Of a DNA stretch of 64,000 nt, positions 29,001 through 55,888 are shown piece after piece. Numbering within the stretch: position 1 is the first letter of the stretch; every line of letters begins with the position of its first letter. The notes below the pieces were generated by a model that saw nothing but the letters and a program-made list of their open reading frames with translations, was not told where the DNA came from and ran no database searches. The translations under genes were made by a program, and so were the position numbers. Source of the stretch: Chaetoderma sp. LZ-2023a (Eukaryota > Mollusca > Caudofoveata > Chaetodermatida > Chaetodermatidae); the NCBI GenBank assembly GCA_034401795.1, contig CM067369.1, positions 187,324,742-187,388,741 of the forward strand. Reading direction: 5' to 3'.

Positions 29001-32000
29001 GATTTCTCCAAATATGACCTTTAAGCTAGTAAAAGGTATCCAGCCACAGTCACTAGTGATTAATACCTGATGCTGTTCCCGAGAACAGCATCAGGTATTA
29101 ATCACTAGTGACTGTGGCTGTCCATGTTTTACTAGCTTAAATCAAACCCAGCCACTATTTTGTTGGCGCCAATACAGAGAAAACCTCCACCTGGAGGGAA
29201 TCCTCCACAGATATAATTTTTCTCTGAAACATTTCTAATCTGTGAATCTAATTCTCTTTCCAAAGCAGCATACCACAGAAATAGACCTATATTTCTGAAG
29301 TAGTAAACTACTACTACACGTCAAAGAATGAGAATGGTTACTGTTAGTAACATTCCCAATATATGGAGAATGTAGACAGGCTCAGCAATGTTATGCGTGG
29401 ACTGGCCACCCGGCTTGACAATTAAATGGATGTCACTTCCCATCAATCCACCCATGAGGACACCACCGGACAGAATACTGTTCACAATGAAAAAACAACT
29501 TCCAAACAGGAAGACATGTTCACCCATTTTGCCAAGCAGTTCTTTCACATATTTTGGGAAAGACTAAACCTTCTCGCTTTGGAGGAAAGAAATCCTCGAC
29601 TCCACCATTGGATCATTCCGACACAAACAAACACCTCAGGTTTACAGGTTTTAAGAGGGTGCCTCAATGCGTACATCCAAAAGCCTCCAATCAGGAGGAA
29701 AACAGTATAATGGATCCATCAAACTCCACATTATGGAACCTCTCAGCCCGACCTTATTAGATGAGGGCTCCCATATCCCCCCCCCTCACCCATGTTTTAA
29801 TTGCTTAACTTTTCCTTTAAGCCTCTTCTAAAGAACCACTGGGCTGATTTCCACCAAATTTATTAGGAGGTATCCTTTGGTTATAGAGATCCAGGTTTCT
29901 TCAAATGAAGCTGATTGGTTGATTTGGCTTATGGATCTCTTGGATTTTCAAGAGAACCTGATAGGTCCATTTGTCTGGCAGTCATCTTGTGGGATATAGT
30001 TTTCACAAAAATATGGTAAGGACTAAGGGCTATTAAGGTTTGTTCAAGCGAAGTTGATACATAAAAACATGGTTGCCGTGGACCATAAAAAATGTTGCAT
30101 TTAGTGGTCATATTAGATTTTTTTATTTGATAGATTTTGATGGTGAAAATTGGTTTATATGTATGTATTATTAAATATGACTCCTAAAATGCCTCCAATT
30201 TGTACTTTTAAAATCAAAATTTTGATGTTTCTGACTATTTCTTGCAAAAAATGGATTCAACATGTAGAACATGCCTTTCTGGTTGAGATGCCAATGTTTC
30301 AGGCCTCATGTATTATATACCTACCTGTAGCCTTGCTAATGAAATTGTTCTATTTCTATTTTAGCACAAATTTCACCAATTTTGATAATATTATGACAGC
30401 CATTTGCAAATATGAATTACAGGCAGGGTCACTTATGCCCCAAGCTTCTATGCACAAGACATGTTTCTGGTTGCACATTTTAAAACAGGATTGTTATGAT
30501 AAAAGCAGAACAGTTTACTTTATTTTGTAAATATGCTGTATATAATGCTAATCCAATATAAAATTGAAACATGTATGTTCATAGGCATCAGTAGTCTATA
30601 GCTATATGTAGTACAGTATAGCTCAGAAATAACTTAACGATTCCAAAACAAAAATTGAAACATGTTAGTTAGTACACTTTTTAACATGATGTAAGAAATG
30701 TTCTGCTGCTTATTTTGTATCTTTGAGCCAGTTTCAGTGTCTTTCTCGGAAAAGAAATGTTGGCTACTCTGAGAATAAATCTCTTATATTGAATCCTGAA
30801 CCAGGGGATGCTGGTGGTGTGGTGACACCCCACTTTGAATATAGTATTAACCCTCGAATTTGTTCAAGAAATTTCAGTTTTCGCATAGAAAAGGTCCATT
30901 TGCAGAGAGACTATTTTTGAAAACTTACCACTGGAATGACTGGCTCGGTTATCAAGCCAGTCATTCCTGTGGTAAATTATCAAAAATAGTCTTCTCTTTC
31001 TCGGCAAATGAACATTTCTCAAGACCAGGGCTGATATGAGTGTAAAACGGTTAAAACGACTATCATAGCTGATATTCTAGGAAAGGTTGATAATCTGGGG
31101 ACTTGCTGATAAAAAGGCTACAGGGTCTATGTTTAACTCCACTCAAATCTGCAATGCCATATCGTTTCATCAACATGTTTACAAATCACTCTTTCTAACA
31201 GATTTGTGTCTAAATGTATGGAAATCATGTATGAAGGGTCTAACGGTCATGATTCATGCATTCATGAACACCAATTAATTTGTTTAAATTCTCTGATCAC
31301 CATATTTAGCTGGTAAGTCATCCACTCAGCTGCTAACTTTATATATATGGCATCTGATTAATTAACCCTTTAACACCAAAAGCAGACAAAAATTGATTCT
31401 GCATTAGTTTTGAGAAATGTCCATTTGTAGGCCAAGGGTTGACTATTTTTGAAAATTTACCATTGCAATGACTGGCTCGATAATCGAACCAGTCATTCCA
31501 GTGGTAAATTTTCAAAAATAGTCTTCTCTTGGTCTGAAAATAGACATCTTCTATGAGAAAATTGAAATTTGCTTGAACACATTTGAGGATTAAATGGTTA
31601 AACTATCATCCTGGCATGTTGCTCTCATAATGATAATTTACAGAATTCAGAAGTGAAAGCTTTTAATAGTAACTTTATGGGGTTTTGACAAGTTGTGTCA
31701 CATAAATGCATTTCATTAAGTAAGAAAGACTCAAAACTTAACCCGTTCACCAATGAATTCCCCATATCTCATTTTCAAGGCAACCATACAGGAAAACTGT
31801 TGAATATTCTCAAATTAATTAGACTGGAAGCCGTTGTTACCTTAGGCAGCAACAGCTTCCAGTCAAATTAATCTTATAATATTCAACAGAATAAGTTTTA
31901 TATCATAAAGAATGTACTTTTTCTGTGATTTGTCGGTGAACGGGTTAAACAGGAGGGCTCATAGTGATCCTTGAAAGTGGTTACAGTACTTGAATCTTGA

Positions 32001-35000
32001 ATTTGTTCTTCACGGACCCCAGAACTTGCTGGGTTTTAGAAAGTTGACCTGACATGCTTGAAACTGCTTAAATTTAGGAAAAATCTGTGAAAATGTATAG
32101 ATTTTCACGAAAACCTTTGTTCCCTGTACATTAAAAGAACAAGACCACATAATGACTGAATTTTTAAGCATTTGCTGCTTAAGATTTGTCAAGAAAACTA
32201 AATTTTTCATTTATTGAATGTCGATTTGCAGGCTAATAGAGGACTAATTTTGAAAATTTGCGACTGAAACTCTGAATGATTGGCTCGGACACCATTTCTC
32301 AGACCACTACCATGGCTAATTTTAGTCAGCTTGATAATTAGCATTTAACCCTCAAATTCTTTCAAGAAAATTTCAATTTTCTCATCGAAAATGTCAATTT
32401 GCAGACCAAGAGAAGACTATTTTTGGAAATTACCACTGGTCATTCTAGTGGTAAAATTTCAAAAATAGTCTTCTCTTGGTCTGCAAATGGACATTTCTCA
32501 AGACCACTGCAGAAGGCATTTTTGGCTGATTTGAGTGTTAAAGGGTGTAAAGAGTTGATGAATTATGAATATGATAAAACATTAGCAAAGATCATTGAAA
32601 ATATTTGAAAATGGTAAAAAGTCCTTAAAAGTGATTGAATGTCCTTGCAACTATGAACCATGTTAATAATGTAGGCCTTCATTTCCATTTTTACCGATGG
32701 TAGTTTATTTAATATTGTATGAAATTGCCAATAAACATCATTTGTTATTTCCCTTTTTCCTTTCTTTAATAGTCCATCAAGTTGTAGGAATTGTATGTCT
32801 TTATCATTTAATAAACATTCTGTTGAATATTTTGAAACTAATGTGACTGGGCACTGTTGCTGCCATAGGCAGCAACAGTGCCCAGTCAAATTAGTTTCAA
32901 AATATTCAACAGCTATGGCAGCATCAGTGCCCAGTCAAATTAGTTTCAAAATATTCAACAGCTTACCTGTATAGTTTTCTGGAAATTGAGATTCAGAGTG
33001 CAGGGATCGATCGAGCACAACACAGGCAAAGAGTGGGTGGAGCTTAGCTAGAGATAGGTTCCTCCATTACGTCAATCATAAAGTAGAAAATAGGTATGTT
33101 TATCAGAATGCAGTATTTGACATTGACACAATATGTCAGTACGCTTTGTGAAACTGACCCCTAGAGTTAATGTCACTTGTTACTCTTTTTCAGATCAGAA
33201 GGGTATCTATGTTTATGTAAAAAGTGTTATTCTGGGATGGATTTTGCAGTGGCCCTGGAGCATATCTTGGCAAAAAGGTTCAGGTAACTAGTTGTATTGC
33301 ATGCAAAATGTAACTGTTTACCATCAGCAATTAATTGTGCAAAGTAATCTTAAAAAGTAATGTTAAATTTACCAAACTAGTAACATGATGGTTTTATTCT
33401 GGGCAAATTAGCCTGGAAAGCTCAATATCTCAATTTAAAAGCACCTATATTAGGTAATCTGTTAAAATTTTGAATCAAATTTGACTGGAAGCTGTTGCTG
33501 CCTTAGGCAGCAACAGCTTCCAGGCAAATTAGTCTCGAAATATTTAAGAAAATTATTTTATGTGGCATGTTGTGTTCAGTTGCGGTGGGTTAACTGGTGT
33601 CGAATGATTGCATATTACATGCATGTGGCATTTACTTAGAACTGCGGCTAAGATAGCTAAGAAATGGCTATGAAGAAATACAGTTGTCTAATACCGGTAC
33701 TTTGCGAAGTTGTGATTCTATCCTAATTCATCTGTCTCTCCATATCCACATCATAGAAACTACTGGTTCCACTTTGCTCCTCTATATTAAACACAAGAAT
33801 TGGTGTTTCGGTAAATTACGAATGCCTAACTTTGATCTAGAAAAAAATTAGATTAGGATTTTCGATCTCTGATTCTCTTATCATTGTACATACAATTTGG
33901 TACAGTGGTGTGTAACCCTTTAATGGTTAAATTTTGTCAAGAAAATCTAAATATTTGTTTATTGAAAAAAAATGTCCATTTGCAGGCAAAGAGAAGACTT
34001 TTAATTTGCCACTAGACTGTCTGAACTTGTGTAAGTTACTTTTTTTAAGGTGGCAATGGCGACAACGTATACGCATCACCATATCTGGACGACACATGAA
34101 TGATGACCCAACAAAGCTTCATGATCAACAGCTTCTCTATCCTGAGTATCGATTTACAGAGCATGTACGTGAAGAGGAGCAGTCTCGTCAAGCTCACTTG
34201 CTTGACGCACCACAGTTGGAACGTGTGTTACCAATATTAGCGCTGAACGAGGTGTTTATTGCAGAATCACTTTCAGCAAGGTTTGTAATATTGAACCCAT
34301 AGAAAACTGAACTCATAAATTTAGTTATCTTTAGTATACAATAGAGTTCAGAAATTACTTAATTTGTTTCGAAACAAATAAAGAATAAAGCATAACAGTA
34401 CTCTTGAATATTTCCTCATTCACCTTTTCAGAGTATCCATCCATCATCTGATCTCGTATGACGTCTTAATCAGCTCAGCGCATGTATGATAACATCATAA
34501 TCATTACATCATAAAGGGTTCCATATAGACCATCATAAAGGGTTCCATATAGACCGTCATCAAATCTCAAATGGTCCGGGACGTTGTATGAATTGTATGT
34601 CTTTGTAATTCTTTGTTATTTAATGAAGATGCTGTTGGATATTTTGAAACTAATTTGCCTTAGGCAGCAACAGCACCCAGTCAAATTAGTTTTAAAATAT
34701 TCAACAGCTTACCTGTGTAGTTTTTTGAAAATTGATAGTCAGGGTGTTCAGAGATCGATCGATCCCAACATGAGCGAGGTGTGGGTGGAGCTTAGCTAGA
34801 GATGGGCGGGGCATAGCTAAAACAGGAAAGGTCCATTGGCCGACTTCAACCACACTTGCCTCGAATAACTAGACTGGCGTAGCCTTACAAACTTGTATAA
34901 AGAAATTTGATTGATAAATTTTCTTGCCAGCCATCTTGGATTTTCCAAGAATTTCTGGTACTCCTCATTAACCATTAGGCTACCTTCACCCATACTGGGC

Positions 35001-38000
35001 TGAAAGGACCCTATAGTTGTAGGCTTCTGAACTTGTATACAGAAATTTGATTGGGCAATTTTTCCTGTGGCCATCTTGGACTTTCCAAATATTTTCTGGA
35101 AAATCAGTTAAAGGACCACTCATTAAACATTGGCCAGATTTTAACCATACTTGCCTGAAAGGACCCTGTGGTCATAGACCTCTGACCTCATATACAGAAA
35201 TTTAATTTTTATAAAAGTAAACTTTTGCTTTAAAAACGACTCAGTAACTGCTTTGTCAATTTCAACAAAACTTGGTGCAAATAGCCATATGGCGATAGAC
35301 TTTGAAACTCGTATACAGCAATTTGATGCGTAAACTTTTCAAGCGTCCATCTTGGATTTTCCAAGAATATTCTGGAAAATCTTTTAACACGCCACTCCTT
35401 AGTTATCTAAGCTTCAAGATTTTTAACATGAACCCACAACCTTTGGTTATCAGAGGACAATTGGTGTCACATGGTTTCTAGGTCTCTGATAGACCTTGAT
35501 TAGATACCCATGGTCTTCTGGTAATGAGATCATACTGCTACTTTATGAACATCAAAATTGTGAAGCCGGTCGTGGAGTTGATGAGTCTTATGGTGTCTGA
35601 ATAATTCACTATTTTTATCGGAAATCCTATTGCTATTATGATCTATATGAAATCTTATAAATTTGTTGGACAAATTTTCTATAAAAACAAGAGCAATTAG
35701 AGATTTTAGACTTGTTTTTGTCACATTGTTAAAAGTTTTCGGATTGTCCAGATTTTTTCAGATTTTCAAAATTTTTTAGATCATGCCTAAAGTTGTGTAA
35801 TCCTAAGGTATGGGCGCAGTCTTTGTGTCAGAATTTGAGCCAAATGGACCTTTCCAGTTTTAGCTATGCCCCCGTACATCACTAGCTAAGCTCCACCCAC
35901 ACTTCACCATGTTGGGATTGATCGATCCCTGAATGCCCTGACTATCAATTTCTTAAAAACTATACAGTTAAGTTGTTGAATATTTTGTAATTAATTTGAC
36001 TGGGCCTATAGCAGCGACAGCATTCAGTTAAATTAGTTTCAAAATATTCAAAAGAATATTTATTAAATAGTAAAGACATACAATTCGTACATTGCATTGT
36101 CTGTCTTCAACTATGCATTCGTGATGTACTTATCTACGTCGTTCATGACGTCATTGATTGTGATGTCATTCTATACGTCATGTAGTTGATCATGACGTCA
36201 TATGATGGATGGATACAGTGGAAAGGTCCATTGTACCAGTAGTTTAGAGTTATCTATAGATAGAGAATTTACTCAGATCCAGTTTCTTTTATCTGGATCA
36301 CAGCCAATGTCTGGAAATCCTCCTGTCTCTTCAGTATGTTAAAACTTGAGCCAAATCAGATCTGTAGTTTTTAGCTCACCTGGGCCAAGTGAGTTTATGC
36401 CATGGCGACTGTCAACTTTTGCTTTAAAACACTACTCGTTATTAACCACTTGACCGATTTCAACCAAATTTGGCTGGAACGACCCTATAGTCGTAGGCTC
36501 CAGAACCTCCATTCGGAATTTTGATTCATCAATTTTTTGGGTGAAAATCTTAGATTTTAGGGAAAATGTACTGAAAATAGTCAAAATGCTGCTTCTTACC
36601 ATTCTGAGCGATTTCGACCAAATTTGGCTGAAAGAACCCAGGCTCCAGAACTTCCATTCAGAATTTTGATTCATCAATTTTTTGGGTGAAAACCTGAGAT
36701 TTTTTTTAAAATGTAGTGGAAATTGTCAAATTGCTTCTTCTTAACATTCTGAGCAATTTCAATCAAATTTGACTGAAAAGTCCCTATGCTCGCCGGATCC
36801 AGAACGTCTATTCAGAATTTTGATTCATCAACTTTTGGGTGAAAATCTTAGATTTTATGAAAAATCTACCAGACCGTACCATTCTGAGCGATTTCAACCA
36901 AATTTGGGTGAAAGGACAGAATGGCCGTAGGCTCCAGAACGTCCATTCAGAATTTTGATTCATCAATTTTTTGGGTGAAAATCTTAGATTTTATGAAAAA
37001 TGTACCGGAAATTGTCACAATGCTTCTCCTTACCATTCTGTGCGATTTCAACCAAATTTGGTTGAATAGACCCTATGGTCGTAGGCCCCAGAACTTCCAT
37101 TCAGAATTTTGAGTCATCAATTTTTTGGGTCTTTTATGAAAAATGTACCTGAAATTGTAAAATTGCTTCTTCTCCTTACCATTCTGAGCGATTTCAACCA
37201 AGTTTGGTGGAAAGGATCCTGTGGTGATGGGCTCCAGAAGTTCCATTCACAATTTTGATTCATCAATTTTTTGGGTTGAAAATCTCAGAGTTTATTAAAA
37301 ACGTACCGGAAATTGTCAAATTACTTCTCCTTACCATTCTGAACAATTTAAAGCAAATTTGGCTGAAAGGATCCTATGGCATGAGGCTCTAGAACTTCCG
37401 TTTGCAGTTTTGATTCATCAATTTCTTGGGTGAAAATCTGAAATTTTATGAAAACTGTACCGGAAATTGTCAAATTTCTTCTTCTCCTTACCATTCTGAG
37501 CGATTTCAACCAAATTTGGCTGAAACGATCCTGTGGTGATGGGCTCTAGAACTCCCATACACAATTTTGTTTCATCTAATTTTTGGGTGAAAATCTTAGA
37601 TTTTATGAAAAATTTACCAGAAATGGTCAAAATGCTACTCCTCCAATAGCTGATTGAGATATTTTAACCAAATTTGGTTAGATGGATTCTATGGTGGTTG
37701 GCTCCAGAACTTCCATTCGTAATTGTGATTCATCGATTTTTTGTGTGAAAACATTAAATTTTATGACAAATTTACCGGAAATTATCAAATTGCTTCTTGT
37801 CAACTTAACTGATTTCAAGCAAATGTGGTCAAAGGATTCTATGATCATAAGCTTTGGAACTTGCATTCAGAATGTTGATTCATTAAATTTTTGGGGGAAA
37901 AATCTTACATTTTATTACAAATTTACCGGAAATTGTCAAATTGCTGCTTCTCCTTAGTACTGTGAGCAATTTCAACCAAACTTGGCTAAAATGATCCTAT

Positions 38001-41000
38001 GATCATAGGCACTAAAATTTCCATTCTGAATTTTGATTGGTAGATTTTCCTCTGAAAATTTGTTTTCCCATCTTGTTTAATGTAATGAATCATGTATATC
38101 TAAATTCAAATGTTAATGGTCCAGGTGAGCGTCACAGGCCCTTGGGCCTCTTGTTTAGATACAGCGCCGGACATACACATACACAGGTATGCAGGCAGGC
38201 AAGCAAGCAAGCAGGCAGGCAGGCAGATAGGCAGACTGACCGACCCAAATTTAATACCCTCTTTCCCTCATGGGCATTGGGGAGGCCTGAGGGTAGTAAT
38301 ATAAATCCATTAAACAATAGAAAGTTAATATGTTAACATTTCGGAAAACAAATATCAAATTATGTTGGTATTTGCAGATATTACGAAAATGCATTAGACC
38401 TTTAATGGTTAAGATTGCTCAAGAAAATCAAAACATATAGTATAGTAAATGTCCATGTTCAGACTAAGGGAAGGCAATTTCAGATTTACCAATGAAATGA
38501 ATTTCAGAAGATTTACGGAACCAGTCATTCCAGTGGTAAATTTTCAAAAAAATTTCTTGTAGCATGCAAGATCAGTCATTTCTCAAGCCTATTGCATTGG
38601 CCAGCCTGACAATTAAAATATTAATGCATGAAATGACTCTTGAAGCCAAAAGATGGTGACTCATTAAGACATCTTGTCTTTCACTCACCTGTCTTAAAGA
38701 ACAACCATCATTTTGTACAAAAAGGCAGGTGCTCCTTTGACTGTGTCAATATAAGCTAGATATGTATGTTATACCTACTTTATTAAGGGTGTCATACTAT
38801 GAGATTTCCGTTGACCGAGGGAAGCATGAAAAACAAAAGAGTTCGGGTGTGACTGTGTGCACGGGAACAGGCTCTAGCTCATGGCATCTTCACATTAACC
38901 AGCTAGCTCTGAAGGCAGTACAGCAACTTGCTACGATAGGTCTGTGAGTCAGCACTTATTGTCTGCATGTACTAGTCCATATTCATTGACAGTTTTTGTC
39001 CCCAAACGTTGTCAACTGTGAAGATAAAAGTTAGGCCATGGCATGACATCCACGCATCCAACTGGATTTGACCAGATTGAAATATGCCTACAAGGTTTAG
39101 CATAAATTTTACTGTGTCAATACCATTTGACAAGATGTTAGTCGAAATCTGTGGTCATTTGCTGTGAATATTCACCAGAGTTACTGAACCCTGAAAGTAT
39201 TGGGATCGCGTTTCCATGAAATCGCTTCATATTACTCACAGTTTCCGGAGTGTAATTTTAGAATGTCTGCATGTGATTGCATCAAATTTGATATATCAAT
39301 GTATCGTGACAATGGATGAGTCCAGTTTAGCGATCAATCATATGATGTCATAATCAACTATATCACATGTAGGATGATGTCATAATCATTTATGTCATGA
39401 ATGACATGAGTCTATCATAAATGCTTAATAGTCCGTCAAGTTGTGCGAATTGTATGTCTTTTCTATTTACTAAACATTCTGTCGAATATTTTGAAACTAA
39501 TTTGGCTTGGCACTGTTGCTGCCATAGGTAGCAACAGCACCCAGTCAAATTAGTTTTAAAATATTCAACAGCTTAGAATACGTGTAGAGTTTTCTAGAAA
39601 TTGAGATTCAGGTAGATCCCAACAAAGCATAAGTGGAGCTTATTTAAAGATGGGCAGGGCAAAGCTCAAACTGGATTCCACCATTAGGATCGCACCTCAG
39701 TGAACTGCATCCATAGAGGCATCAATTTCTAGCTTAGGCCTGACTATTTCTAGCCAAGTTCTTCCCACCTTGGCTGCGTGTTGAAATCGATTTGAAGCAT
39801 TAAAACCTGAATACACAAATAGAAAATGTAGATTTCTCGGTAATTGCATGCGAGTTATTGAATCTTTTGAAACTAATTCGACTGGTGGATGGTGCTTCTA
39901 TGGCAGTCAAAATATTCAACAGAATTCTTATGAAATTGAAAATAAATCCAAGACATACAATTCATGTGACTCATAAGATACTATTGCCACCTTTGTGATG
40001 GACTTACATCATTTTGATTGTGGCATCAGGCAACAAGTGATGTATTTGATTATGATCTCATATACTTGAGCGACAGATAGGATCCCGCCATCGAATTACC
40101 TCTTATCATAATGGACCTTTCCAGTTTATCCATCCATCCTATAACGTCATAATGAACTACATGACGTGTAGGATGACATCATAATCAATGATGTCATGAC
40201 TGATGTAGATACATGTAAGTACATCACGAGCTCATAATTGGTGATGGACTATGCGTTGTTGTACAAACTGTATGTCTTTACTATTTAATAAACATGCTGT
40301 TGAATATTTTGAAACTAATTTGACTTGCTACCCTAGGCAGCAACTTCACCCAGTAAAATTAGTTTCAAAATATTCAACAGCTTACCTGTAATGTAGTTTT
40401 CTGGAAATTAATAGTCAGGAAGTTCAGGGATCGATCGATCCCAACACGAATGAGGTGTGGGAGGAGCTTAACAAGAGATGGGCGGGGCATAGCTAAAACT
40501 GGAACGGACCATTAGGAGTCATAAAAGATGTGGTTGTTCTCAAATGTGATCATAAGAATTCCGTCCATCCATCCTAGATTGATTTCTGAAGAGAAATTGC
40601 TTGGAATTGTTTTAAATTTGATAATTCGATACCACAAGACAAGATTTTGCTATATTCTGCATAATCTGGTCGATGGTAAAAATTTGAAAACAATGTTTCT
40701 GATATCTGTTCTTTCTCAAGGCATTAGTACCAGTTATCATGGAAAACATATCTAAATAACACATGCTGATACATATGATAATGTGGTATACCGGCCTTAA
40801 GGAGATCACAAACACGAATTAGATTTCCAATAAATGCAGCAAAAATCACTTCATATTTTATGAAATAATATTATTTTACCATTCTTCACAACCGCTATCG
40901 ATATTAAAATTTGATAAACACCCCATATAATTCACCATGTTACACCATCGCGTGAATCACCAACCATGTGGGTTCAGCTTACTCCATACATGTGTTCAGA

Positions 41001-50000: not shown

Positions 50001-53000
50001 GAAACTGATCAACAGAGCACCGACAATGTCTTGTGCACTTAATCCTATCCCAACTGCTCTAATTAAACAGTTTATAGACGAGTTGTTGCCATTCCTGAAA
50101 AAAATTATTAATAACTCCCTGATTCAAGCTGTAATGCCTTCCACATTCAAATGTGCCCGAGTCAGACCATTACTCAAAAAACTTAGCTTAGACCCTGAGA
50201 ATCTGAAGAATTATCATCCAGTGTCTAATTTAGCATTTGTCTCGAAAATCATCGAAAAGGCGGTGGCTTCCCGATTCCAGTCTCATGTGATATAACATAA
50301 TCTTTCTGAGCCATTACAATCTGCTTGCACTGCATTCTGTTCAACAGAGACAGCGTTATTAAGAGTACAAAATGATGTGATGAGAGCCGTCGATAACAAT
50401 ATGATCGGAGTGCTGTTTTTACTAGATCTGTCAGCAGCATCCGACACAATAGATCATGATCGACTACTTGCTAGACTAGAAAATATGCTTGGAGTAACGG
50501 ACTCAGCTTTGGTTTCGTTCATATTTGACCAGTCGAACACAAACTGTCACTATTGATGGTAAATCTGCTCAACCTCAAACTTTGACATTTGGTGTCCCAC
50601 AAGGCTCTGTATTGGGACCATTACTTTTTATTGCATATACAGCTCCATTGGGTGCTATTATTCGTCAACATGGATTGAACTATCATCTATATGCTGATGA
50701 TACACAAATCTACACCTGGTTCAATGCTTGTGATAGCGCTACTATTACCATCGAGCAAATTCAGAACTGTTTGGCTGATATACAACTATGGATGAAAGAA
50801 AACTTCCTTATGCTAAATGCCGACAAAACAGAGACCATTGTCTTTGGAACTCCAAATATGAAAACTAACATGAATAACGTGTCTATTAAGGCTGGTGAAT
50901 GTACCATCATACCAGCATCTCACGCAAAAAACCATGTGATATTTGACTCGCACATTACACTAGAGAAGCATATCAGCTCTGTGTGTCGGTCTACACACCT
51001 AAGTCTCAGATCCATTGGACGAATTAGAAAATACCCGACATCCTCAGCTGCAAAGACACTTATGCAATCATTGGTGATCACAAAATTGGACTACGCTAAT
51101 GCTCTTCTCATTGGGGTCACGGGTCAGCAACTGGACCGTCTCCAAAGGATACTAAATATATCCGCTCCTATTGTCACCTGTTGTAGCCGCTATGCTCACA
51201 TCCAACCAGTGTTAAAAGAACTTCATTCTTTACCAGTCTGTAGACATATTCAATTTAAGGTTTGCCTTTTAGTTTATAAAGCGCTGATGGGTCTTACTCC
51301 AGAATACATTACACAAAAGATAAGCCTCTACGAACCAAGCCGAAGCTTACGCTCAGTCGCAAAACAGCAACTTAAAGTTCCCAGAACCCGCCTCTCCAGC
51401 TTCGGTGACAGGGCATTTAGCAAAATGGCACCCGTCTGGTGGAATGATTTGCCAATAACGCTCAGAACAATGACACATGTTAACAGTTTTAAGAAAGGAC
51501 TAAAAACGCATCTTTTTAAACTTCAGTATAATTGTTAATTTTTTAGCACTATTTTACACGCTGACCTTCCATTTTAATCATATAAAATCTAGTTTTATTT
51601 TTTAACATTTTGCCCATAGCGGTTTTTTACTAATTTTATTGTTTTTACCATGACTGAGTAGTTTTATAGACTTGCATAAAAATACCTAACAAATCTAGCA
51701 TGGGACATACATAATTCATAGTTGTGAGTCCCATGGTACACTCTAATTTTAGCATGGATGAGGTAATACTGCTTGGGAACTCAATTTGAATTTTGGGACC
51801 CCAGGATTTCAGCGGGGGACCCCCAAATTTCAGGGTGTGGGGTCCCTGGGACCTTGAAAATATAGATGCCATGAGAAACACTGTTATTGCCCATTGAAAT
51901 TATTGTTGGTGGCTTGCAGCAGTCCGACAGAAAATGATATGTGCTGTGTCTCAATAATGATTGATGAGTTAATCCTATCAAAGAAACTGGTGTACATTTT
52001 TTAAGAATATTGGTGGAAGATGTTGCTGTCTATGACAGCACCATCTCCCACCAAATTTGTTTGAAAATGAACACCAGTTCATCTGGTAAGTTAATTTGAA
52101 AATATTAACACCAGAGTGGTAAGGGTTAATATAATAGTGGAGCCAGAGCCAAAACTGGGCTTTGCCGTCATCTTGATAGATGTTTACTTGCAGGCCAAGA
52201 GAAGACTATTGAGAATAATTTTGAAAAATAACCTCTCATGCAACTGTGATTAAATTCATAATGTATAAATGAGTTCTTAAATAGTGAGTCTTTGGTTACG
52301 ACTTGTACCTAGTATGTCGGTATGTGTATCAGTAAGTCCGTTTGTGAGTTAGGCGGTTGGTCTGTCAAATTTTTGACAATTTTGTCACAACTATCACGTG
52401 CTCGCACTTGTTACACTAACTTTAGCCTTGTAATGCTCAAATATGTTCAAGAAAATCCCAATTTACGCGTAGAAAATGTCTATTTACAGTCCAACAAAAT
52501 ACTATTTTTGACAATTTACCACTAGAATGATTGGCTCTGTTTATATCGAGCCAGTCATTCGTCGTAGTCCTTTCTTCGTCTGCATATGGACATTTGTCAA
52601 TGGCACTGCAGAGGCAGGATTTGGCTGACCTTGTCCAGTAAAGGGTTAATTGCATGAACATTCTATCAAATGTTGTACTCTATCAATATTGCTGGCACAA
52701 CCCATTTCTAAATATCTGCTTTCTTCATTATTTTTCAGGAATCTTTCAAGTTTCTGATCCACGAGGCTTTGCTGAGAGGTATGTACATATGCAAAGGCAG
52801 CGTGTGGCGATTTTTAACACCATTCTTCATCTGATCAATATAATGGACCTTTCCAGTTTTTGCTCAGCCTCGCCCACCTCTACCCATACCTCACTTGTGT
52901 TGGGATCGATTAATCTCTGAACTCCCTGACTATCAATTTCTGGAAAACTATACAGATAAGCTGTTAAATATTTTGAAACTAATTTGACTGGGTGCTGTTG

Positions 53001-54762
53001 CTGCCTATGGCAGCATCAGCGGCCAGTCAAATTAGTTTCAACATATTCAACAGACTATTTATTAAATAGTAATGACATACAATTCGTACAACACATAGTC
53101 CGTCTTCAAATATGTGTTCGTGATGTACTTATCTACGTCATTCATGACGTTACTGAATACGATGTCATTCTTCACGTCACGTAGTTAATTATGATGTCAT
53201 ATGATGGATGGATAAAGTGCAAAGGTCTATTATATGTGATCTGCAGTTCCTACATCACATTTCTCCACAGGTAGCCTTTGAAATCATTGAGTTTTCTTTT
53301 AGGCTCATTGTCTGTCACTCGACATCCCCAATGGGTACCATGAGCATAAGTTTCAAACGTGTAATTAGATGCGCTTCAAGGTTATTTTGTTATCTGAGTC
53401 CGCAATGTTCGTAAAAAGAACCTTGATTCAGTGTTTAACTGTCTCGCTGCTGCGACCCACCGGACAATAATTTCAGTGATAAAAAACTCTTGACTTGATG
53501 AATATTTTGAAAACAATTTGTCTGAAAGTTTCTGGTGGCTTAGCCACCAGCAACTTTCGGTCAAATAGTTTTCAAAATATTTAGCAGGTCCTGAGATATA
53601 ATCCCTGGAATATGTTGTCTGCAAAAACTCGGCAGTCAGAGAGTTAAACTATCAGTATCTGACAATCGCTAAAAGCAACTTCGGTTTCTGAATTTCAGAT
53701 TTTCACGCTCGCCATACTATAGGTCATACCAAGCTTTTGTTTTAATTAATCATTTGTCTTTCTTCATCGTTTTCCTCCATCAAAACTCTGACAAGTGACA
53801 TTAATAAAGGGATCCAGTCTGTCACTCAAGTATTTGACATCATAATATATTACATCACTACTTATTTGATGTCACAATCAAAATGAGGCAAACACGTATA
53901 AAATGTTGGAGTTTAGAGAGAAATGGGCAAGGCTTTGTTAGAATAGGGATCCTCTATCGGTTTATGAAATCATCCTTGATAATGATTGATAGATTGGGAT
54001 CTGTGAATTCAGCAGCGCAAGATTTAACAATTTAATGTCAAATTTTCAAATATTTGCTCATTGAATGTCCATTGGCATGACAAGAGAAGACAGTCATTCC
54101 AGTGATAAATTTTCAAAAATAGTCTTCTCTTGTCCTGCAAATGGACATTCATTAACCATTTAACCCTCAAATTTATTCAAGAAAATTAAAATTTTCCCAT
54201 AGAAAATATCCATTTGCAGACCCAATGAAGACTTCATTTTAAAATTTGCTATTGGAATGACTGGCTCGGTTTGGGAGCCAGTCATTCCAGTGGTAATTTT
54301 CAAAAATAGTCGTGCAAATGGGCATTTCTCAAGACCACTGCAGAAGCCATTTTTGGCTGATATGAGTGTTAAAGGGTTAAGACCACTAGAGGCAGGTTTT
54401 GGACGGGTTGACCATTAAAGGGTTAAATCCTACAGAACAGAAACTAGTAATACTTTTTGATATTGAAAATATTATCTTGAATATTTTGAAACTAATTTGG
54501 CTGGGAGCTGCTGCTGCTCCCAGTCAATTAGTTTCAAAATATTCAACAGCTTGCCTGTATGTCTTAAACGGAGGTACTGTAATTCCATGGGTTACAGGGT
54601 TAAGCTCTTAACTATCCGTTTAATTTCAGAATAAAGTTACGATCGCGCATGTGGGACGCGTGCATTGTGATTGATGGCGGTTATTCATTCAAGTTCAATG
54701 ATGGAGCGGTTGCTAAGCTGGAAATCTTTGAGGAAGACGCTTTAACGACTGTTGTCATTTGA
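22915..54762 (+). CDS. NADK2: NAD kinase 2, mitochondrial type (partial gene, eight exons, 3' end complete)
   Basis: NADK2 phosphorylates NAD+ to NADP+ with ATP in the mitochondrial matrix. Eight exons join in one frame with GT-AG introns: 22915-23003, 25479-25649, 33194-33283, 34050-34280, 38788-38939, 49489-49632, 52739-52778 and 54630-54762. In order they give [14 protein letters not shown]; the nucleotide-binding [13 protein letters not shown] with [74 protein letters not shown]; and [10 protein letters not shown] with FKFNDGA, then a stop. Each piece and each junction follows vertebrate NADK2 as I remember it. The N-terminal exon or exons (start codon, any transit peptide, KTTRYEFE block) were not found between 12 and 22.9 kb. 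Introns total about 31 kb and consist largely of transposons. No change suggests loss of function. It ends 2.55 kb short of convergent DPH5. Confidence 0.93.
23081..23195 (+). pseudogene. Short duplicate of the LINE-Y 3' region
   Basis: Nearly identical to 24245-24355 of the LINE copy downstream ([25 protein letters not shown]-coding). It is an isolated scrap in the same intron. It is either a separate truncated insertion or a local duplication. Confidence 0.75.
23397..23452 (-). repeat. Family B MITE (B1), left remnant
   Basis: TTAACCCTTTCACTGACC..ATCC matches the far end of B2 (31738-31948) in inverted orientation. The remainder of the same MITE resumes at 24790 after a LINE insertion. Confidence 0.65.
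23455..24789 (+). pseudogene. Non-LTR retrotransposon (LINE-Y) RT copy, 5'-truncated and broken
   Basis: RT blocks in order: [63 protein letters not shown], then in other frames [19 protein letters not shown] and [20 protein letters not shown] (YADD active site). The C-terminal tail follows: [32 protein letters not shown] and [20 protein letters not shown]. At least two stops and several frameshifts. An internal piece after the YADD block is missing. The 3' terminus (AGTAATCATACAT) is shared with - strand tails at 55955 and 60505. Clade not assigned. Inserted in MITE B1. Confidence 0.85.
24790..24909 (-). repeat. Family B MITE (B1), right remnant
   Basis: The hairpin arm CTGGAAGACGTTGCTAGG..TTTCAAAATATTCAACAGC is followed by GAGATATGGAGG and the end GATGAAAGGGTTAA, the mirror of B2's start. 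Confidence 0.75.
24906..25065. repeat. Family A MITE half copy
   Basis: TTAATGGTCAAGCCAGCC, GCAGTGGTCTTGAGAA and CCAGTGGTAGATTTAC match one half of family A, then the palindrome falls away. It abuts B1 at a shared TTAA. Confidence 0.6.
25081..25470 (+). repeat. Segmental duplication copy 1 (partner 31100-31490)
   Basis: From GACTTGCTGATAAAAAGG to CTGGCTCAATAATCGAACC, about 390 bp matches 31100-31490 with only about ten to fifteen differences by eye. It includes non-repeat sequence plus the left half of a family A MITE. Similarity stops 8 bp before NADK2 exon b, in the middle of the MITE palindrome. Confidence 0.92.
25341..25470. repeat. Family A MITE, left half (A1)
   Basis: TTAACCCTTTAACACC to AATGACTGGCTCAATAATCG. 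The second half is absent and the splice acceptor TCTTGCAG follows directly. Confidence 0.85.
25479..25649 (+). CDS. NADK2: NADK2 exon b (GGDG nucleotide-binding exon)
   Basis: Reads [42 protein letters not shown] and [12 protein letters not shown], with donor GAAGG|GTAAAT. GGDGT is the conserved NAD kinase motif that binds the phosphate donor and NAD; NTDPE continues into SEG in the next exon, as in NADK2. Acceptor TCTTGCAG has a poor pyrimidine tract, because a MITE half ends 8 bp upstream. Confidence 0.95.
25724..26087 (+). repeat. Family P MITE (P2)
   Basis: Variant ends GAGGATTCCAGTTTTAGCCC and AACTGGAATCCTCCATTA. Central hairpin GTTGAATATTTTGAA with partner arm AAAATATTCAACAGC, partly eroded on the left arm. 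Confidence 0.8.
26125..26209 (+). repeat. AGCTCACCTGG repeat, 5' end only (S3)
   Basis: AGCTCACCTAGCCTAAAAGG..CTTATGCCATGGTGAC through GTCAACTTTTCCTTTAA, where the 2.8-kb element begins. The TTAA used is the same site of this family that receives a MITE at 58526. Confidence 0.75.
26206..29022. mobile_element. 2.8-kb non-autonomous element with ~200-bp inverted ends and TTAA flanks
   Basis: The ends read TTAAAGGTCATATATGGAGA (left) and TCTCCAAATATGACCTTTAA (right). Similarity of the inverted ends continues imperfectly for about 200 bp, sharing TTACCTCCCTTGA, a CGTCA/TGACGT motif and GGAACAA. TTAA at both outer edges fits a target duplication of the piggyBac or Kolobok type. The interior holds a C-run with (CA)n near 26936-26998, a G/C-rich tract near 27980-28060 and no transposase frame; an open frame at 28707 lies in the terminal repeat and is not taken as a gene. 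Confidence 0.65.
29022..29139. repeat. Fold-back, ~50-bp arms
   Basis: CTAGTAAAAGGTATCCAGCC..CACTAGTGATTAATACC, a loop at GTTCCCGAGAAC, then the inverted arm back to GGCTGTCCATGTTTTACTAG. The arms are nearly perfect. It starts right at the outer edge of the 2.8-kb element. Confidence 0.85.
29140..29800. other. Unassigned stretch with a small hydrophobic frame
   Basis: A - strand frame at 29548-29321 encodes about 75 residues with two hydrophobic segments ([35 protein letters not shown]). I do not recognise it, it has no splice or gene context, and a + strand frame overlaps it. It may be a fragment of a processed copy or chance. Confidence 0.25.
29800..30300 (+). repeat. AGCTCACCTGG family, internal fragment (S4)
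   Basis: CTTTTCCTTTAAGCCTCTTC, AAGAACCACTGGGCTGATTT and TTGTTCAAGCGAAGTTGATAC match S1/S2 internally. Left and right ends are missing or decayed. Confidence 0.7.
30301..30846. other. AT-rich non-coding stretch
   Basis: Nothing recognised. Confidence 0.4.
30847..31054. repeat. Family A MITE (A2)
   Basis: TTAACCCTCGAATTTG start, central ATGACTGGCTCGGTTATCAA and inverted arm, end AAACGGTTAA. Confidence 0.9.
31100..31490 (+). repeat. Segmental duplication copy 2 (partner 25081-25470)
   Basis: Same block as copy 1. Here the family A MITE is complete (to 31601), so the block boundary lies inside the MITE centre. Confidence 0.92.
31362..31601. repeat. Family A MITE (A3), reference copy
   Basis: TTAACCCTTTAACACC at the left. 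Then TGTCCATTTGTAGGCCAAGG, GAAAATTTACCA, the centre ATGACTGGCTCGATAATCG, then inverted ATTCCAGTGGTAAATTTTC and TCTTGGTCTG. The right end GGATTAAATGGTTAA is less well kept. About 240 bp, no coding capacity. Confidence 0.9.
31738..31948. repeat. Family B MITE (B2), reference copy
   Basis: TTAACCCGTTCACC..CCATATCTCA at the left. Central hairpin: TGTTGAATATTCTCAAATTA, TTGTTACC|TTAGGCAGCAA and the inverted arm to ATTCAACAG. Right end TGTCGGTGAACGGGTTAA. 211 bp with CCCGTTCACC and GGTGAACGGG as terminal inverted repeats inside the TTAA pair. Confidence 0.9.
32345..32550. repeat. Family A MITE (A4)
   Basis: TTAACCCTCAAATTC to TGTTAAAGGG. The arms GACCAAGAGAAGACTATTTT and its complement flank a shortened centre that has lost the TGGCTCG loop. 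Confidence 0.88.
32771..33068 (-). repeat. Family P MITE (P3), truncated, with duplicated hairpin arm
   Basis: Reverse orientation. The hairpin CTGTTGAATATTTTGAAACT..GCCATAGGCAGCAACAG is followed by two successive copies of the CCCAGTCAAATTAGTTTC..TTCAACAGC arm, then TAGCTAGAG and an end TCCTCCATTA. Confidence 0.85.
33194..33283 (+). CDS. NADK2: NADK2 exon c
   Basis: Acceptor TCTTTTTCAG and donor TTCAG|GTAACT. Reads [14 protein letters not shown], then [22 protein letters not shown] completes the NTDPExSEGxLCL block of NADK2. The rest corresponds to the segment leading into WRQRIR and is more variable. Confidence 0.9.
33440..33592. repeat. Family B MITE (B6), decayed
   Basis: Hairpin TCAAATTTGACTGGAAGCTG, TTGCTGCC|TTAGGCAGCAACAG and inverted arm. 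Right end GGTGGGTTAA; the left end is not clear. Confidence 0.65.
33912..34010. repeat. Family A MITE fragment (A5)
   Basis: TGTAACCCTTTAATGG, AATGTCCATTTGCAGGC and AGAGAAGAC, then similarity fades about 40 bp before exon d. Confidence 0.6.
34050..34280 (+). CDS. NADK2: NADK2 exon d
   Basis: Acceptor TTTTTTTAAG, donor GCAAG|GTTTGT. Reads [29 protein letters not shown], an acidic Gln-rich spacer, and [23 protein letters not shown] and ALNEVFIxESLSxR are strong NADK2 markers. The spacer is the variable loop between them. The split Arg codon (AG|G) continues into exon e. Confidence 0.95.
34419..34837 (-). repeat. Family P MITE (P4)
   Basis: Reverse orientation: TATCCATCCATCATCTG at the left, hairpin with one arm shortened (TTTGCCTTAGGCAGCAACAG), ATCGATCGATCCCAACATG, and end CAGGAAAGGTCCATTG. 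A small local duplication of AAAGGGTTCCATATAGACC lies inside. Confidence 0.85.
34838..35500. repeat. AGCTCACCTGG family, internal fragment (S5)
   Basis: Three to four diverged ~150-bp units with GCCATCTTGGATTTTCC and ATACAGAAATTTGATT, close to the unit type of S6. The ends are absent. Confidence 0.6.
35843..36232 (+). repeat. Family P MITE (P5)
   Basis: AATGGACCTTTCCAGTTTTA start, GTGGAAAGGTCCATT end. Near-complete, hairpin arms partly eroded. Confidence 0.9.
36373..38155 (+). repeat. AGCTCACCTGG family, complete copy with 11-unit internal array (S6)
   Basis: Start AGCTCACCTGGGCC, end CCAGGTGAGCGTCACAGGCC and GGGCCTCTTGTT. Between them about eleven units of ~155 bp, each with GCGATTTCAACCAAATTTGG, CCAGAACTTCCATTCAGAAT and a TTTTTTGGGTGAAAATCTTA box. 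The box recurs at about 36453, 36608, 36753, 36889, 37043, 37189, 37344, 37501, 37658, 37810 and 37969. No coding frame. Confidence 0.9.
38185..38240. repeat. (CAGG)n/(CAAG)n microsatellite
   Basis: Tetranucleotide run of CAGG and CAAG. Confidence 0.9.
38400..38636. repeat. Family A MITE (A6), diverged
   Basis: CCTTTAATGGTTAAG start, AACCAGTCATTCCAGTGGTA and AATTTTCAAAAA in the right arm. Ends decayed. Confidence 0.65.
38788..38939 (+). CDS. NADK2: NADK2 exon e
   Basis: Acceptor TTTATTAAG, donor GATAG|GTCTGT. Reads [37 protein letters not shown] and [28 protein letters not shown] and CTGTGS.W are conserved in NADK2. CTGTGS is the glycine-rich substrate-binding block. An in-frame stop follows two codons past the donor, so the splice is needed. 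Confidence 0.95.
39311..39685 (-). repeat. Family P MITE (P6)
   Basis: AATGGATGAGTCCAGTTTAG at the left and AACTGGATTCCACCATTA at the right. Hairpin with GTTGCTGCC|ATAGGTAGCAAC. Confidence 0.85.
39735..40092 (+). repeat. Family P MITE, strongly diverged
   Basis: TTCTAGCCAAGTTCTTCCCACC, TTGAATCTTTTGAAACTAAT, GACATACAATTCATG and GATTATGATCTCAT keep the P order, but both ends are unrecognisable. Confidence 0.6.
40109..40514 (-). repeat. Family P MITE (P7), near-complete
   Basis: TAATGGACCTTTCCAGTTTA start, ACTGGAACGGACCATTA end. TGTCTTTACTATTTAATAAA, hairpin, ATCGATCGATCCCAACACG and TAGCTAAAACTGG, all in family order. Confidence 0.9.
40515..41424. other. Non-coding stretch
   Basis: AT-rich, nothing recognised. 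It leads into the tandem array at 41425. Confidence 0.4.
41425..41724. repeat. ~150-bp tandem array, left part (split by DIRS element)
   Basis: Two units beginning ACCAAGTTTGGTGACCATAT (41425, 41581), each with CTTGAAACTATGG, TTTTCTGTGATATTCAGTCG and AGGTCAGCATGACCT or a one-base variant, ending AGATGCATCCACAT. It continues at 48462. Confidence 0.93.
41658..41672. promoter_or_regulatory. ERE-like palindrome AGGTCA-GCA-TGACCT
   Basis: Exact match to the oestrogen-response-element consensus (two AGGTCA half sites, inverted, 3-bp spacer). Repeated in other array units at 48547 and 48690, and with one change at 41512. Function is not shown. Confidence 0.5.
41725..41890 (+). repeat. Element 2: left inverted terminal repeat
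   Basis: From ATACTTACCAGATGTACTAT through CTCCGCACTCTCCTGG to CACAGTCAGATTCGTCT. It is the reverse complement of 48263-48422 with about four mismatches. Confidence 0.95.
42530..44269 (+). mobile_element. Element 2: gag-like frame (fossil)
   Basis: A long frame of about 580 residues. A Cys/His cluster at the N-terminus ([17 protein letters not shown]) is followed by an acidic Ser/Pro-rich middle and a basic Gln/Arg C-terminus. The position and composition match the first frame of DIRS elements, and the Cys cluster resembles that of element 1. Confidence 0.8.
44840..46360 (+). mobile_element. Element 2: reverse transcriptase and RNase H region (fossil)
   Basis: RT blocks [40 protein letters not shown] and [20 protein letters not shown]. 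RNase H blocks follow: [32 protein letters not shown] and [16 protein letters not shown]. After them, VDLFAM and [12 protein letters not shown] form the DIRS-type segment after RNase H. Confidence 0.9.
46540..47511 (+). mobile_element. Element 2: tyrosine recombinase region (fossil)
   Basis: [20 protein letters not shown], then [33 protein letters not shown] and [16 protein letters not shown]. These carry the Arg, HxxR and Tyr boxes of tyrosine recombinases in the right order and spacing. It is close to 11100-11915 of element 1. Confidence 0.92.
48094..48195 (+). repeat. Element 2: internal complementary region
   Basis: 48094-48126 is complementary to the extreme left end (TCATAATAGTACATCTGG). 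48136-48195 is complementary to the extreme right end (AAAAAAGCATCCGCTTTTG, CGAGAATTCTTAATACTTAC). The two complements are joined side by side, the hallmark of DIRS1-type elements. Confidence 0.9.
48263..48461 (+). repeat. Element 2: right inverted terminal repeat with extension
   Basis: Reverse complement of the left repeat up to about 48422, plus a unique ~38-bp outer extension (AATTCTCGTAGAAACAAAAG..GCTTTTTTGA) whose complement is found only in the internal complementary region. Confidence 0.92.
48462..48745. repeat. ~150-bp tandem array, right part
   Basis: Two further units (ACCAAGTTTGGTGACC at 48462 and 48603), each with a perfect AGGTCAGCATGACCT (48547-48561, 48690-48704). Continues the array at 41425. 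Confidence 0.93.
48746..49488. other. Non-coding intron stretch
   Basis: Mostly unrecognised. Near 49370-49443, GGGTATCGCAATTCGG..CATTGCAGCCCTA looks like the end of an hAT-like repeat (AGGGCTGCAATGAT type), without a visible partner end. Confidence 0.35.
49489..49632 (+). CDS. NADK2: NADK2 exon f
   Basis: Acceptor AACCCCTCAG, donor AAATG|GTGAGA. Reads [37 protein letters not shown] and [10 protein letters not shown]. The block ..NxSLxxxPxEPKxxxxIRxPI is the C-terminal NADK2 signature. Confidence 0.95.
49870..51538 (+). pseudogene. CR1/L2/jockey-type LINE, 5'-truncated
   Basis: RT blocks in order: [77 protein letters not shown] and [14 protein letters not shown] (active site YADD), then [15 protein letters not shown], and the tail [20 protein letters not shown] and [10 protein letters not shown]. 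There is one stop near 50293 and one frameshift near 50525; the rest (50525-51538, 337 codons) is open. No endonuclease domain remains. It is a moderately young copy in the intron between exons f and g. Confidence 0.93.
51539..51968. other. Non-coding stretch after the LINE
   Basis: AT-rich. The GGACCCCAGGATTTCAGCGG..GACCCCCAAATTTCAGG region has short repeats, otherwise nothing recognised. Confidence 0.4.
51969..52129. repeat. Family C MITE (C1)
   Basis: TTAATCCTATCAAAGAAACTGG start, GTGGTAAGGGTTAA end. Central hairpin TGGTGGAAGATGTTGCTGTC|TATGACAGCACCATCTCCCACC. Same family as C2 at 58526. Confidence 0.85.
52421..52648. repeat. Family A MITE (A7)
   Basis: TAATGCTCAAATATGTTCAAG, centre ATGATTGGCTCTG..CGAGCCAGTCAT, end CAGTAAAGGGTTAA. 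Confidence 0.85.
52739..52778 (+). CDS. NADK2: NADK2 exon g (40-nt microexon)
   Basis: Acceptor TTATTTTTCAG, donor GAGAG|GTATGT. With the split codons it reads [14 protein letters not shown]. It corresponds to the short, poorly conserved NADK2 link between IRxPI and the WDAC block (human NRVFSSSRQRCFSSK region). The frame is kept on both sides, which supports it despite its length. Confidence 0.85.
52842..53232 (+). repeat. Family P MITE (P8), near-complete
   Basis: AATGGACCTTTCCAGTTTTT start, GTGCAAAGGTCTATTA end. A near-perfect central hairpin around GTTGCTGCC|TATGGCAGCATCAG. Begins 63 bp after exon g. Confidence 0.92.
53420..53646. repeat. Family B-like palindromic MITE (B4)
   Basis: GATGAATATTTTGAAAACAA, then GTCTGAAAG and TTTCTGGTGGC|TTAGCCACCAGCAAC, with an inverted arm to AATATTTAGCAGG; right end AGAGAGTTAAAC. 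A B-type frame with a different loop. Confidence 0.65.
53770..53960. repeat. Decayed P-like half
   Basis: GATCCAGTCTGTCACTC, TTTGACATCATAATATATTA and GATGTCACAATCAAAATG resemble the GATTATGATGTCAT half of family P. Weak. Confidence 0.35.
54023..54424. repeat. Family A MITE, outer copy of a nested pair
   Basis: AACAATTTAATGTC left arm, centre shortened to AAGACAGTCATTCCAG, and a right arm TCTTGTCCTGCAAATGGACAT that is interrupted and resumes as AGACCACTAGAGGCAGG to GACCATTAAAGGGTTAA after the inner copy. Confidence 0.75.
54156..54379. repeat. Family A MITE, inner copy of a nested pair
   Basis: TTAACCCTCAAATTTATTC start, GGCTCGGTTTGGGAGCC centre, AGTGTTAAAGGGTTAA end. It lies between the two parts of the outer copy at a TTAA. 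Confidence 0.85.
54422..54604. repeat. Family B MITE (B5)
   Basis: TTAAATCCTAC start and CAGGGTTAA end. Hairpin TTGAATATTTTGAAACTAAT, TTGGCTGGGAGCTGC|TGCTGCTCCCAGTCAA. It ends 26 bp before exon h. Confidence 0.75.
54630..54762 (+). CDS. NADK2: NADK2 exon h (terminal coding exon)
   Basis: Acceptor TTTAATTTCAG. Reads [39 protein letters not shown] and TVVI, then TGA at 54760-54762. WDACxVxDGGxSFxFNDGA and the ED.L.TV tail are the conserved end of NADK2. No clear AATAAA was seen close after the stop. Confidence 0.95.
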
Positions 54763-55586: not shown

Positions 55587-55888
55587 TAATGGACCCTTCC
55601 AGTCTTAGCTATGCCCCGCCCATCTCTAGCTAAGCTCGACCCACACCTTGCTCATGTTGGGATCGACCTATGGCAGCTGTAGGCAGCAACAGCACACAGC
55701 CAAATTAGTTTCAAAACATTCAAAAGCATGTTTGCTAAATAGCAAAGACACAATTCCTATGTGTCGGCCTAGTAAGCGTTTAAGACAGACTAAATCGAGT
55801 CATTCATGCTGATTATGACATCATCCTACACATCACGTAGTTGATTATGATATCATATGCTGGATGGATAAACTCGAACGCTCCATTA
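55587..55888 (+). repeat. Family P MITE (P9), internally shortened
   Basis: TAATGGACCCTTCCAGTCTTA start, CTCGAACGCTCCATTA end. The left hairpin arm is missing. Confidence 0.85.

Follow-up and report, generated by a model that had tools for sequence, protein, structure and literature searches.

Introduction

The usual classification of MITEs is based on their ends, to which the success of these elements is also generally attributed. In foldback elements, of which Tetris and Galileo are examples, long inverted repeats occupy a terminal position. The closest described counterpart of the elements reported here is the CMITE group of the coral Acropora, in which families that differ in their terminal inverted repeats (TIRs) share a conserved internal region (Wang et al. 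2010, PMC2872659). CMITEs are approximately 100 bp in length, with a 75-nt internal region, TTAA target sites and CC[C/T]T ends of the piggyBac type, and one of them, CMITE-IN, is a composite made by insertion. The authors suggested that the internal region aids transposition and left its origin unresolved; the words “hairpin” and “palindrom-” are absent from the main text of their paper (PMC2872659). A composite has also been described in Anopheles, namely AgaP2-P12MITE, each end of which derives from a different subfamily within a single superfamily. For the Anopheles P-MITEs, a fill-in model with an ectopic template was proposed, and it was suggested that a stable secondary structure could give such elements a transposition advantage (PMC1562414).

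In this study we analyzed a 64-kb stretch of DNA (the window; contig 11, G000, positions 187,324,742–187,388,741) from the 2.44-Gb genome of Chaetoderma sp. LZ-2023a, together with related loci fetched from the same genome. A palindrome of approximately 93 bases sits centrally in at least four families of small transposons with different ends and target sites. As with the CMITEs, several MITE families have unlike TIRs and an internal region that is more conserved between families than the ends are. Unlike in the CMITEs as described, the core is palindromic and lies under three target types; the TTAA target characteristic of a CMITE-type group is replaced by AATT-type flanks in family P and TA-type flanks in family C. 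AgaP2-P12MITE is likewise a chimeric MITE for which an ectopic-template fill-in model exists, but in our case one core is found under different kinds of ends (PMC1562414). The long inverted repeats recall foldback elements, from which our elements differ in having a central 93-nt palindrome, with non-palindromic spacers between the palindrome and short TIRs.

The initial annotation of the window knew of no described case of such a shared core. For a single target type, the coral CMITEs provide a precedent (PMC2872659), whereas core sharing across target types and the covariation of the two arms are new. The literature found, in which coverage of subscription papers was limited, contained no report of a hairpin core common to MITEs that differ in target type, and the available text of a mollusc transposon paper (PMC10294476) contains neither “hairpin” nor “palindrom-”. 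The recurrence of one core under ends of three target types, with arms that co-vary like those of a structured RNA, makes an old question testable, namely whether the interior of a MITE, and the hairpin especially, is a driver of amplification.

Results and Discussion

Occurrence and folding of the shared hairpin

The hairpin is 93 nt long, has two 44-nt arms, and corresponds to positions 60–152 of the family B consensus (211 bp; the family P consensus is 403 bp). The arm motif TTGAATATTTTGAAACTAAT matched the window 31 times at up to three mismatches, compared with 0.03 matches expected in shuffled sequences, which bears out the view of the initial annotation that B and P have a common hairpin core. 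The P terminus gave 21 matches (2.4 expected). The arm-motif counts and the alignment z scores presented below together rule out chance similarity of the hairpins. When folded as single-stranded DNA, all five hairpins or hairpin parts tested beat their shuffles by 10 to 19 SD, with energies from −25.6 to −51.5 kcal/mol. No match to Rfam was obtained for the window at the gathering score, which argues against reading the hairpin as an RNA gene, and viral contigs gave no exact match to one 26-nt arm pattern.

Censuses were performed on a library consisting of the fetched loci and the window (346 kb; 272 kb in the first version). It contained 167 hairpins of at least 70 nt, comprising 89 seeds, that is, hairpins coming from the searches, and 78 non-seed hairpins. 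The window held 14 hairpin-like places of this size, some of them beyond the segment covered by the initial annotation. Together with 64 non-seed hairpins in 282 kb of other loci, this amounts to one hairpin per 4–5 kb, a density that refers to MITE neighborhoods and not to random genomic DNA, since the sample was composed of the flanks of fetched MITE loci plus the window. Both ends of one family were recognized at 34 of the 78 non-seed hairpins, one end at 31 and no end at 13; an end was accepted above the second-highest score from 400 shuffles. As each place underwent 20 tests, some of the one-end labels arose by chance.

Copies of the families in the window

Copies of B and P were located in the window by BLAST, with one B copy and one P copy as queries; genome-wide, at least 39 further copies of each were detected (86–91% identical to the query for B, 84–88% for P). 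The 211-bp B copy at 31738..31948 (+ strand; BLAST and consensus) reads TTAA-CCCGTTCACC ... GGTGAACGGG-TTAA and has its hairpin at 31797–31889. BLAST also identified a B copy with an internal deletion at 59041..59213 (+) and one at 24787..24909 (−) that consists of the left end and part of the hairpin only. At 33425..33561 (+) lies a B-like core, made up of the hairpin and the left spacer, whose ends are unrecognizable or lost. The census labeled part of it (33459–33547) as P-left, a label that we suspect to be due to chance, as the core of B fits better.

The initial annotation counted eleven or more P copies. Eleven are indeed present in the window, several of them partial, but only six lie within the segment to which that count referred. 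Full-length copies occupy 35843..36232 (+; BLAST), 40110..40513 (−; terminus matches and BLAST) and 52842..53231 (+), the hairpin of the last (52961–53053) giving a DNA fold z score of −14.9. The copy at 56622..57006 (+) is nearly full length, that at 20906..21263 (+) has GGACC ends in A|AT|T flanks, and that at 57667..58004 (+) carries an internal deletion; these three were recognized by terminus matches and BLAST. Four more were found by BLAST: a diverged copy at 25746..26086 (+), a copy at 34603..34837 (−) with left end, core and a diverged right side, a partial copy at 39321..39612 (−), and a copy at 55588..55887 (+) with an internal deletion that extends up to the hairpin tip. In the partial copy at 32783..33055 (−), the right arm is present as a tandem duplicate (32868–32912 and 32917–32961), the two units differing by one change.

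One copy of a further family, D, lies at 53434..53647 (−); it reads TTAA-CTCTCTGACTGC ... GCAGCGAGACAG-TTAA, and its hairpin is homologous to those of B, P and C. The remaining hairpins comprise a core at 54449..54561 (−), in which a B/P-like hairpin adjoins a TTAACCC motif and whose family is not settled, a degenerate core without recognized family ends at 60107..60213 (−), and a more distant hairpin of similar design at 51983..52068 (+). A look-alike of the latter was noticed by eye near TTAACCC-type motifs in a library locus (L036, 2274–2355). Family A, an abundant TTAA-type family, is represented by a copy with TTAACCCTTTAAC ends at 31362..31601 (+; comparison with the consensus), and occurs also at 32439–32513 and in other places.

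Ends and target sites

The B consensus has the ends TTAA-CCCTTTCACC...GGTGAAAGGG, in which the terminal CC[C/T]T motif is present. In 33 full-length copies each letter of TTAA was found at 85–100%, and the 4-mers at the two ends were identical in 23 of them; the library contained no empty site for any of 37 B copies. To judge from its TTAA and CCCT ends, B is piggyBac-like. Its TIR of approximately 12 nt also resembles that of piggyBac-type MITEs, and family A, too, starts with CCCT.

Family P ends in GGACC within A|AT|T flanks. Its fixed letters (A, A, T on the left and A, T, T on the right) were each present in 94–100% of 34 full-length copies, and duplication of the flanks was not above that in shuffled flanks. 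ISL2EU elements, of the PHIS superfamily, have AT duplications in A|AT|T, and P resembles them in the AT inside A|AT|T and in its short TIRs (PMC4482050). To go by its target signature, P thus looks ISL2EU-like. The search for empty P sites yielded 17 candidate rows from 45 copies, of which only one (L004) was judged informative; it reads AATT, which fits P, and has a 36-nt rearrangement beside it. The other rows were discarded, being mostly P copies inside C- or B-like hairpins, or misjoined repeats. In one such arrangement (L010, ~2156, minus strand), a P copy is inserted in the hairpin of a C-like copy, and hairpins may be insertion targets. Five library loci (L050, L051, L064, L066 and L067) contain P copies that lack the right end and have the same flanks on both sides, which indicates a P fragment carried by a larger repeat.

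Families C and D were found by way of hairpins that had neither B nor P ends in the first census. The C consensus (252 bp) has TA-CAGTACAGCTCA ends with a 44-nt TIR. As a candidate Tc1/mariner-type MITE, C was examined for a TA target and matching TIRs: T and A were present at the two ends in 75–94% of 16 copies, and no empty site was found in the library for any of 19 copies. D is approximately 214 bp in length with TTAA-CTGTCTGACTGC ends, and of 11 copies that were aligned, all but one (L027) had TTAA at the two ends. Unlike piggyBac-type MITEs, D lacks the terminal CC[C/T]T motif, its consensus starting with CTGTCTGACTGC (CTGT), and is therefore named only a TTAA-target MITE. A fifth form, E, is a B-like element with a recognizable left end (TTAATCCATTCACTGATGG) within a longer repeat. 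Since the TTAA, AT and TA flanks consist of fixed letters, shuffled flanks match as often, and the matches do not tell target duplication from fixed termini. The genome contains at least 119 matches to the piggyBac transposase domain (PF13843) and at least 150 to DDE_Tnp_4 (PF13359; Harbinger/ISL2EU-like); with both kinds of domain so numerous, both transposase machineries exist or existed in this genome.

Extent of the similarity between families

The consensus alignment of B and P extends over 168 columns at 80% identity (B positions 18–185 of 211), which leaves 17 nt of B unaligned on the left and 26 nt on the right. In BLAST, the match between a B copy and a P copy of the window spanned B positions 45–174, i.e., more than the hairpin at 60–152. 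With the consensus of an older P subfamily, the alignment begins at B position 17, and the identities per 10 columns were 7–10 in the hairpin, 6–9 in the left spacer and 5–8 in the right spacer, compared with 4–5 at the left end and 3–7 at the right end of B. The B/P similarity had a z score of 4.6 in the left spacer (none of 1000 shuffles as good) and 2.5 in the right spacer (15 of 1000). B and P thus have in common a block of approximately 170 nt with the hairpin in its middle, contrary to the initial annotation, according to which sequence outside the hairpin did not match. Nine places were labeled with parts of both B and P; we did not accept them as recombinants, because mostly their B scores were near the chance threshold, and one of the nine (L036) lies beside a neighboring P copy.

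Arms were 73–98% identical among the B, P, E, C and D consensuses, and the ends of P and C are unlike those of B. B, P and E have spacers in common on both sides of the hairpin, whereas the similarity of C and D to B is nearly restricted to the 93-nt hairpin: all spacer tests with D gave z scores of 2.7 or less, and the right spacer of C gave a weak match (z 1.9 with P, 2.9 with E). The near confinement of C and D to the hairpin is what would be expected if the hairpin itself were a mobile element that inserts into MITEs, a possibility raised in the initial annotation. We regard this as highly improbable, considering that B, P and E share their spacers on both sides, and that, of the 78 non-seed hairpins, 34 had a complete pair of ends from a single family and a further 31 had one end. 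A search for solitary hairpins with target duplications of their own gave none: at the edges of the 13 hairpins that lack family ends, duplications reaching 6 nt were absent and shorter ones occurred at chance frequency. Some of these 13 have B-type spacers and are probably worn or unclassified elements.

The initial annotation had also reasoned that gradual similarity running past the hairpin into the flanks would show simple descent of one family from the other. Such similarity was found in the flanks, but not at the ends. Even so, similarity past the hairpin does not amount to simple descent, given that the families have termini and target sites of different kinds (TTAA, AATT and TA). Under simple descent, the terminal sequences of one ancestral MITE would have drifted gradually, following different transposases. 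Among the TTAA families such drift may well have occurred. The consensus of A, which contains a 133-nt central palindrome of a sequence different from the shared hairpin, aligned with B from end to end (TTAACCCTTT included) at a z score of 6.2; A showed no resemblance to P, C or D (z 1.0–1.3). On this alignment A is distantly related to B, and it may be common for TTAA MITEs in this genome to have a central palindrome. By eye, the ends of B and D agree in TTAAC and at some other positions, so that simple descent may well hold among A, B and D. P and C, however, have other target letters and outer parts dissimilar to B, and no intermediate ends were noticed among the copies listed. A change of target from TTAA to either AATT or TA presupposes a different type of transposase. 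As an account of all of the families, we therefore consider simple descent improbable.

Origin of the shared core

On balance, we think it probable that unrelated ends acquired the hairpin core from a lineage of TTAA-type MITEs on two or more occasions, and that its palindrome was maintained afterwards. The core would belong to a large TTAA-target lineage that includes B, A as a distant relative, and D through its hairpin. P and C would each have arisen when a set of ends captured this core and the chimera then amplified. The block shared with the TTAA lineage is 168 nt in P, and in C the 93-nt hairpin and possibly some right-hand spacer. This agrees with the suggestion in the initial annotation that insertion or recombination put one core under different ends, and extends it to more families (C, D and E).

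Because A, B and D all have TTAA sites, the core most likely came from the TTAA lineage and was most likely received by P and C. The hairpins of B and E are also nearest to those of the remaining families: the consensuses differed at 1–2 positions between B and E, 4–5 between B and P, 6 between B and C, and 9 between B and D, compared with 9–10 between P and C, 10–11 between P and D, and 12 between C and D. A hairpin tree of 93 columns (16 rows each for B, P and C, 13 for D and 4 for X, with E absent) placed C as one clade (97/89) among B rows and D as one clade (100/96). P required two changes on this tree (one in 34% of bootstraps), in which 38 of 61 inner branches were open, with the bootstrap unsettled. 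With D spacer z scores of 2.7 or less and a weak right-hand match in C, the direction of transfer for C and D rests on this 93-column tree.

As a route to capture we tentatively propose ectopic gap repair, in which one of the many hairpin MITEs would serve to fill a gap that lay within, or next to, a transposon bearing the new ends. Close behind, though somewhat unlikely in itself, is nested insertion: a TTAA hairpin MITE would have jumped into an ISL2EU-like MITE and a TA-type MITE, and as the resulting composites multiplied, their inner TTAA ends would have been lost by decay. There is a published example of a new element formed by MITE insertion, the coral CMITE-IN (PMC2872659). In the genome studied here nesting does occur, as seen in the P copy within the hairpin of a C copy (L010), and E, with its B-like left end TTAATCCATTCACTGATGG inside a longer repeated sequence, looks like a composite.

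Traces of inner ends and of unoccupied receivers bear on the choice between the two routes. The B left end gave no match at the core edge of P (1794 of 2000 shuffles as good) or of the older P subfamily (1619 of 2000), and the younger P consensus likewise had no match to the B right end (1419 of 2000). In older P, a borderline match to the B right end, equaled by 147 of 2000 shuffles, lies where it would be expected and ends near a TTAA, and the best of 20 other P windows scored lower; an eroded B right end may thus survive in the older P consensus, which would favor nesting. Against nesting, no unoccupied P was detected: among 255 candidates, none of the 40 scored matches to joined P flanks spanned the joint. 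For joined C flanks, 5 of 40 scored matches clearly spanned the joint, but the three examined (L106–L108) keep hairpin remnants and are therefore deletions, so they were rejected as core-poor C copies. Gap repair and nesting are nearly level for P, and we lean only slightly toward fill-in. These searches turned up neither a donor event nor an autonomous partner, and no form of P or C that predates the capture. Several P copies in the library have deletions ending near the hairpin tip. A P-like copy at 564–798 of locus L016 has both spacers recognizable and no hairpin; it is probably a deletion, the alternative being a hairpin-free stage of P.

Paired changes in the arms and maintenance of the palindrome

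Within each consensus, the two 44-nt arms differed from one another at few positions (B 0, P 2, E 3, C 0 and D 2), whereas between families each arm differed at 1 to 12 positions. Most of the changes between families were mirrored in the opposite arm: 6 of 6 for B/C, 8 of 9 for B/D and 11 of 12 for C/D, counted over 44 positions; 8 of 9–10 for P/C, 8 of 10–11 for P/D and 7 of 9–10 for E/D; and 4 of 4–7 for E/C, but only 3 of 4–5 for B/P, 2 of 5–6 for P/E and 0 of 1–2 for B/E. Between families, therefore, the two arms of the hairpin changed as a pair and the palindrome was kept.

Pairing in individual copies was counted for 30 of the 65 tree rows (29 distinct; 92–94 nt, no family contributing more than 9 rows: B 9, D 9, P 8, C 3 and X 1, C being thinly represented). 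In these, 93.9% of 1270 cells paired, compared with 27–44% in a slid control. Double-sided changes were found in 105 cells, compared with 32.7 ± 4.4 after shuffling (0 of 500 shuffles as high); the shuffle test ignores relatedness, but the slid control, which keeps it, gave at most 22 double-changed cells. The covariation score was 0.258 (0.108 shuffled). The number of further pair types was unexceptional, being reached by 37 of 500 shuffles.

The hairpin would have stayed palindromic in the lineages that multiplied because the arms were corrected mutually, by template switching or conversion, and/or because good hairpins amplify better; either cause, or both, would maintain the palindrome. 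It is possible, although we hold it only tentatively, that a pure mutation bias, i.e., template switching from arm to arm, keeps the palindrome with no gain to the element. This reading concerns maintenance and is compatible with capture of the core as explained above. In its favor, double changes within copies exceeded independence in B (32, of which 24 mirrored, vs. 15.1 expected) and in C (19, of which 15 mirrored, vs. 9.9), an excess that small subfamilies inflate in both. The P copy of the window with one arm tandemly duplicated and one change between the units (32868–32961) is as expected of template switching at a hairpin, and several P deletions stop near the hairpin tip. Against it, P and D showed little excess of double changes (10 vs. 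7.9 and 8 vs. 5.1, respectively).

Divergence within families also bears on this question. With CpG positions removed, and with seed and non-seed copies treated separately, the ratio of arm to spacer divergence was 0.65 and 0.51 for B, 0.34 and 0.56 for P, and 0.53 and 0.52 for D (seed and non-seed, respectively). Correction alone should not reduce divergence, so that the values of 0.34–0.65 obtained for B, P and D speak against a pure bias. The ratio was 0.82 for C seeds, 3.68 for the single non-seed C copy and 0.60 for A. As the arms of A, of different sequence, behaved alike, the lower divergence of arms may concern palindromes generally. Arm correction and an advantage of good hairpins both fit these data, which show that the palindrome was maintained without separating the causes. 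A stronger proposal, that the palindrome is a portable amplification module through which any MITE that gains the hairpin gains copies, whichever transposase it uses, appears to us unlikely. If it were true, selection among elements would keep the arms matched and spread the core across transposon superfamilies.

Other repeats

A 21-bp unit resembling CCCATCTCTAGCTAAGCTCCA lies in the 5′ part of P and is related to tandem arrays of up to approximately 24 copies found elsewhere, namely at L046 395–503, L032 2153–2335, L010 1–371 and L023 625–1133; perhaps an end of P is turning into a minisatellite. Within the window, approximately ten imperfect tandem copies of a 145–158-bp unit (repeat families D1–D4) lie at 36374–38038. 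The region at 42530–47511 is GC-rich and has long open frames, of which the four tested gave no Pfam match. Two retroelement remnants are also present in the window: one at 9327–9965 with a reverse-transcriptase domain below the curated cut-off, and one at 50525–51538 with an RVT_1 reverse-transcriptase domain (E = 8e-14).
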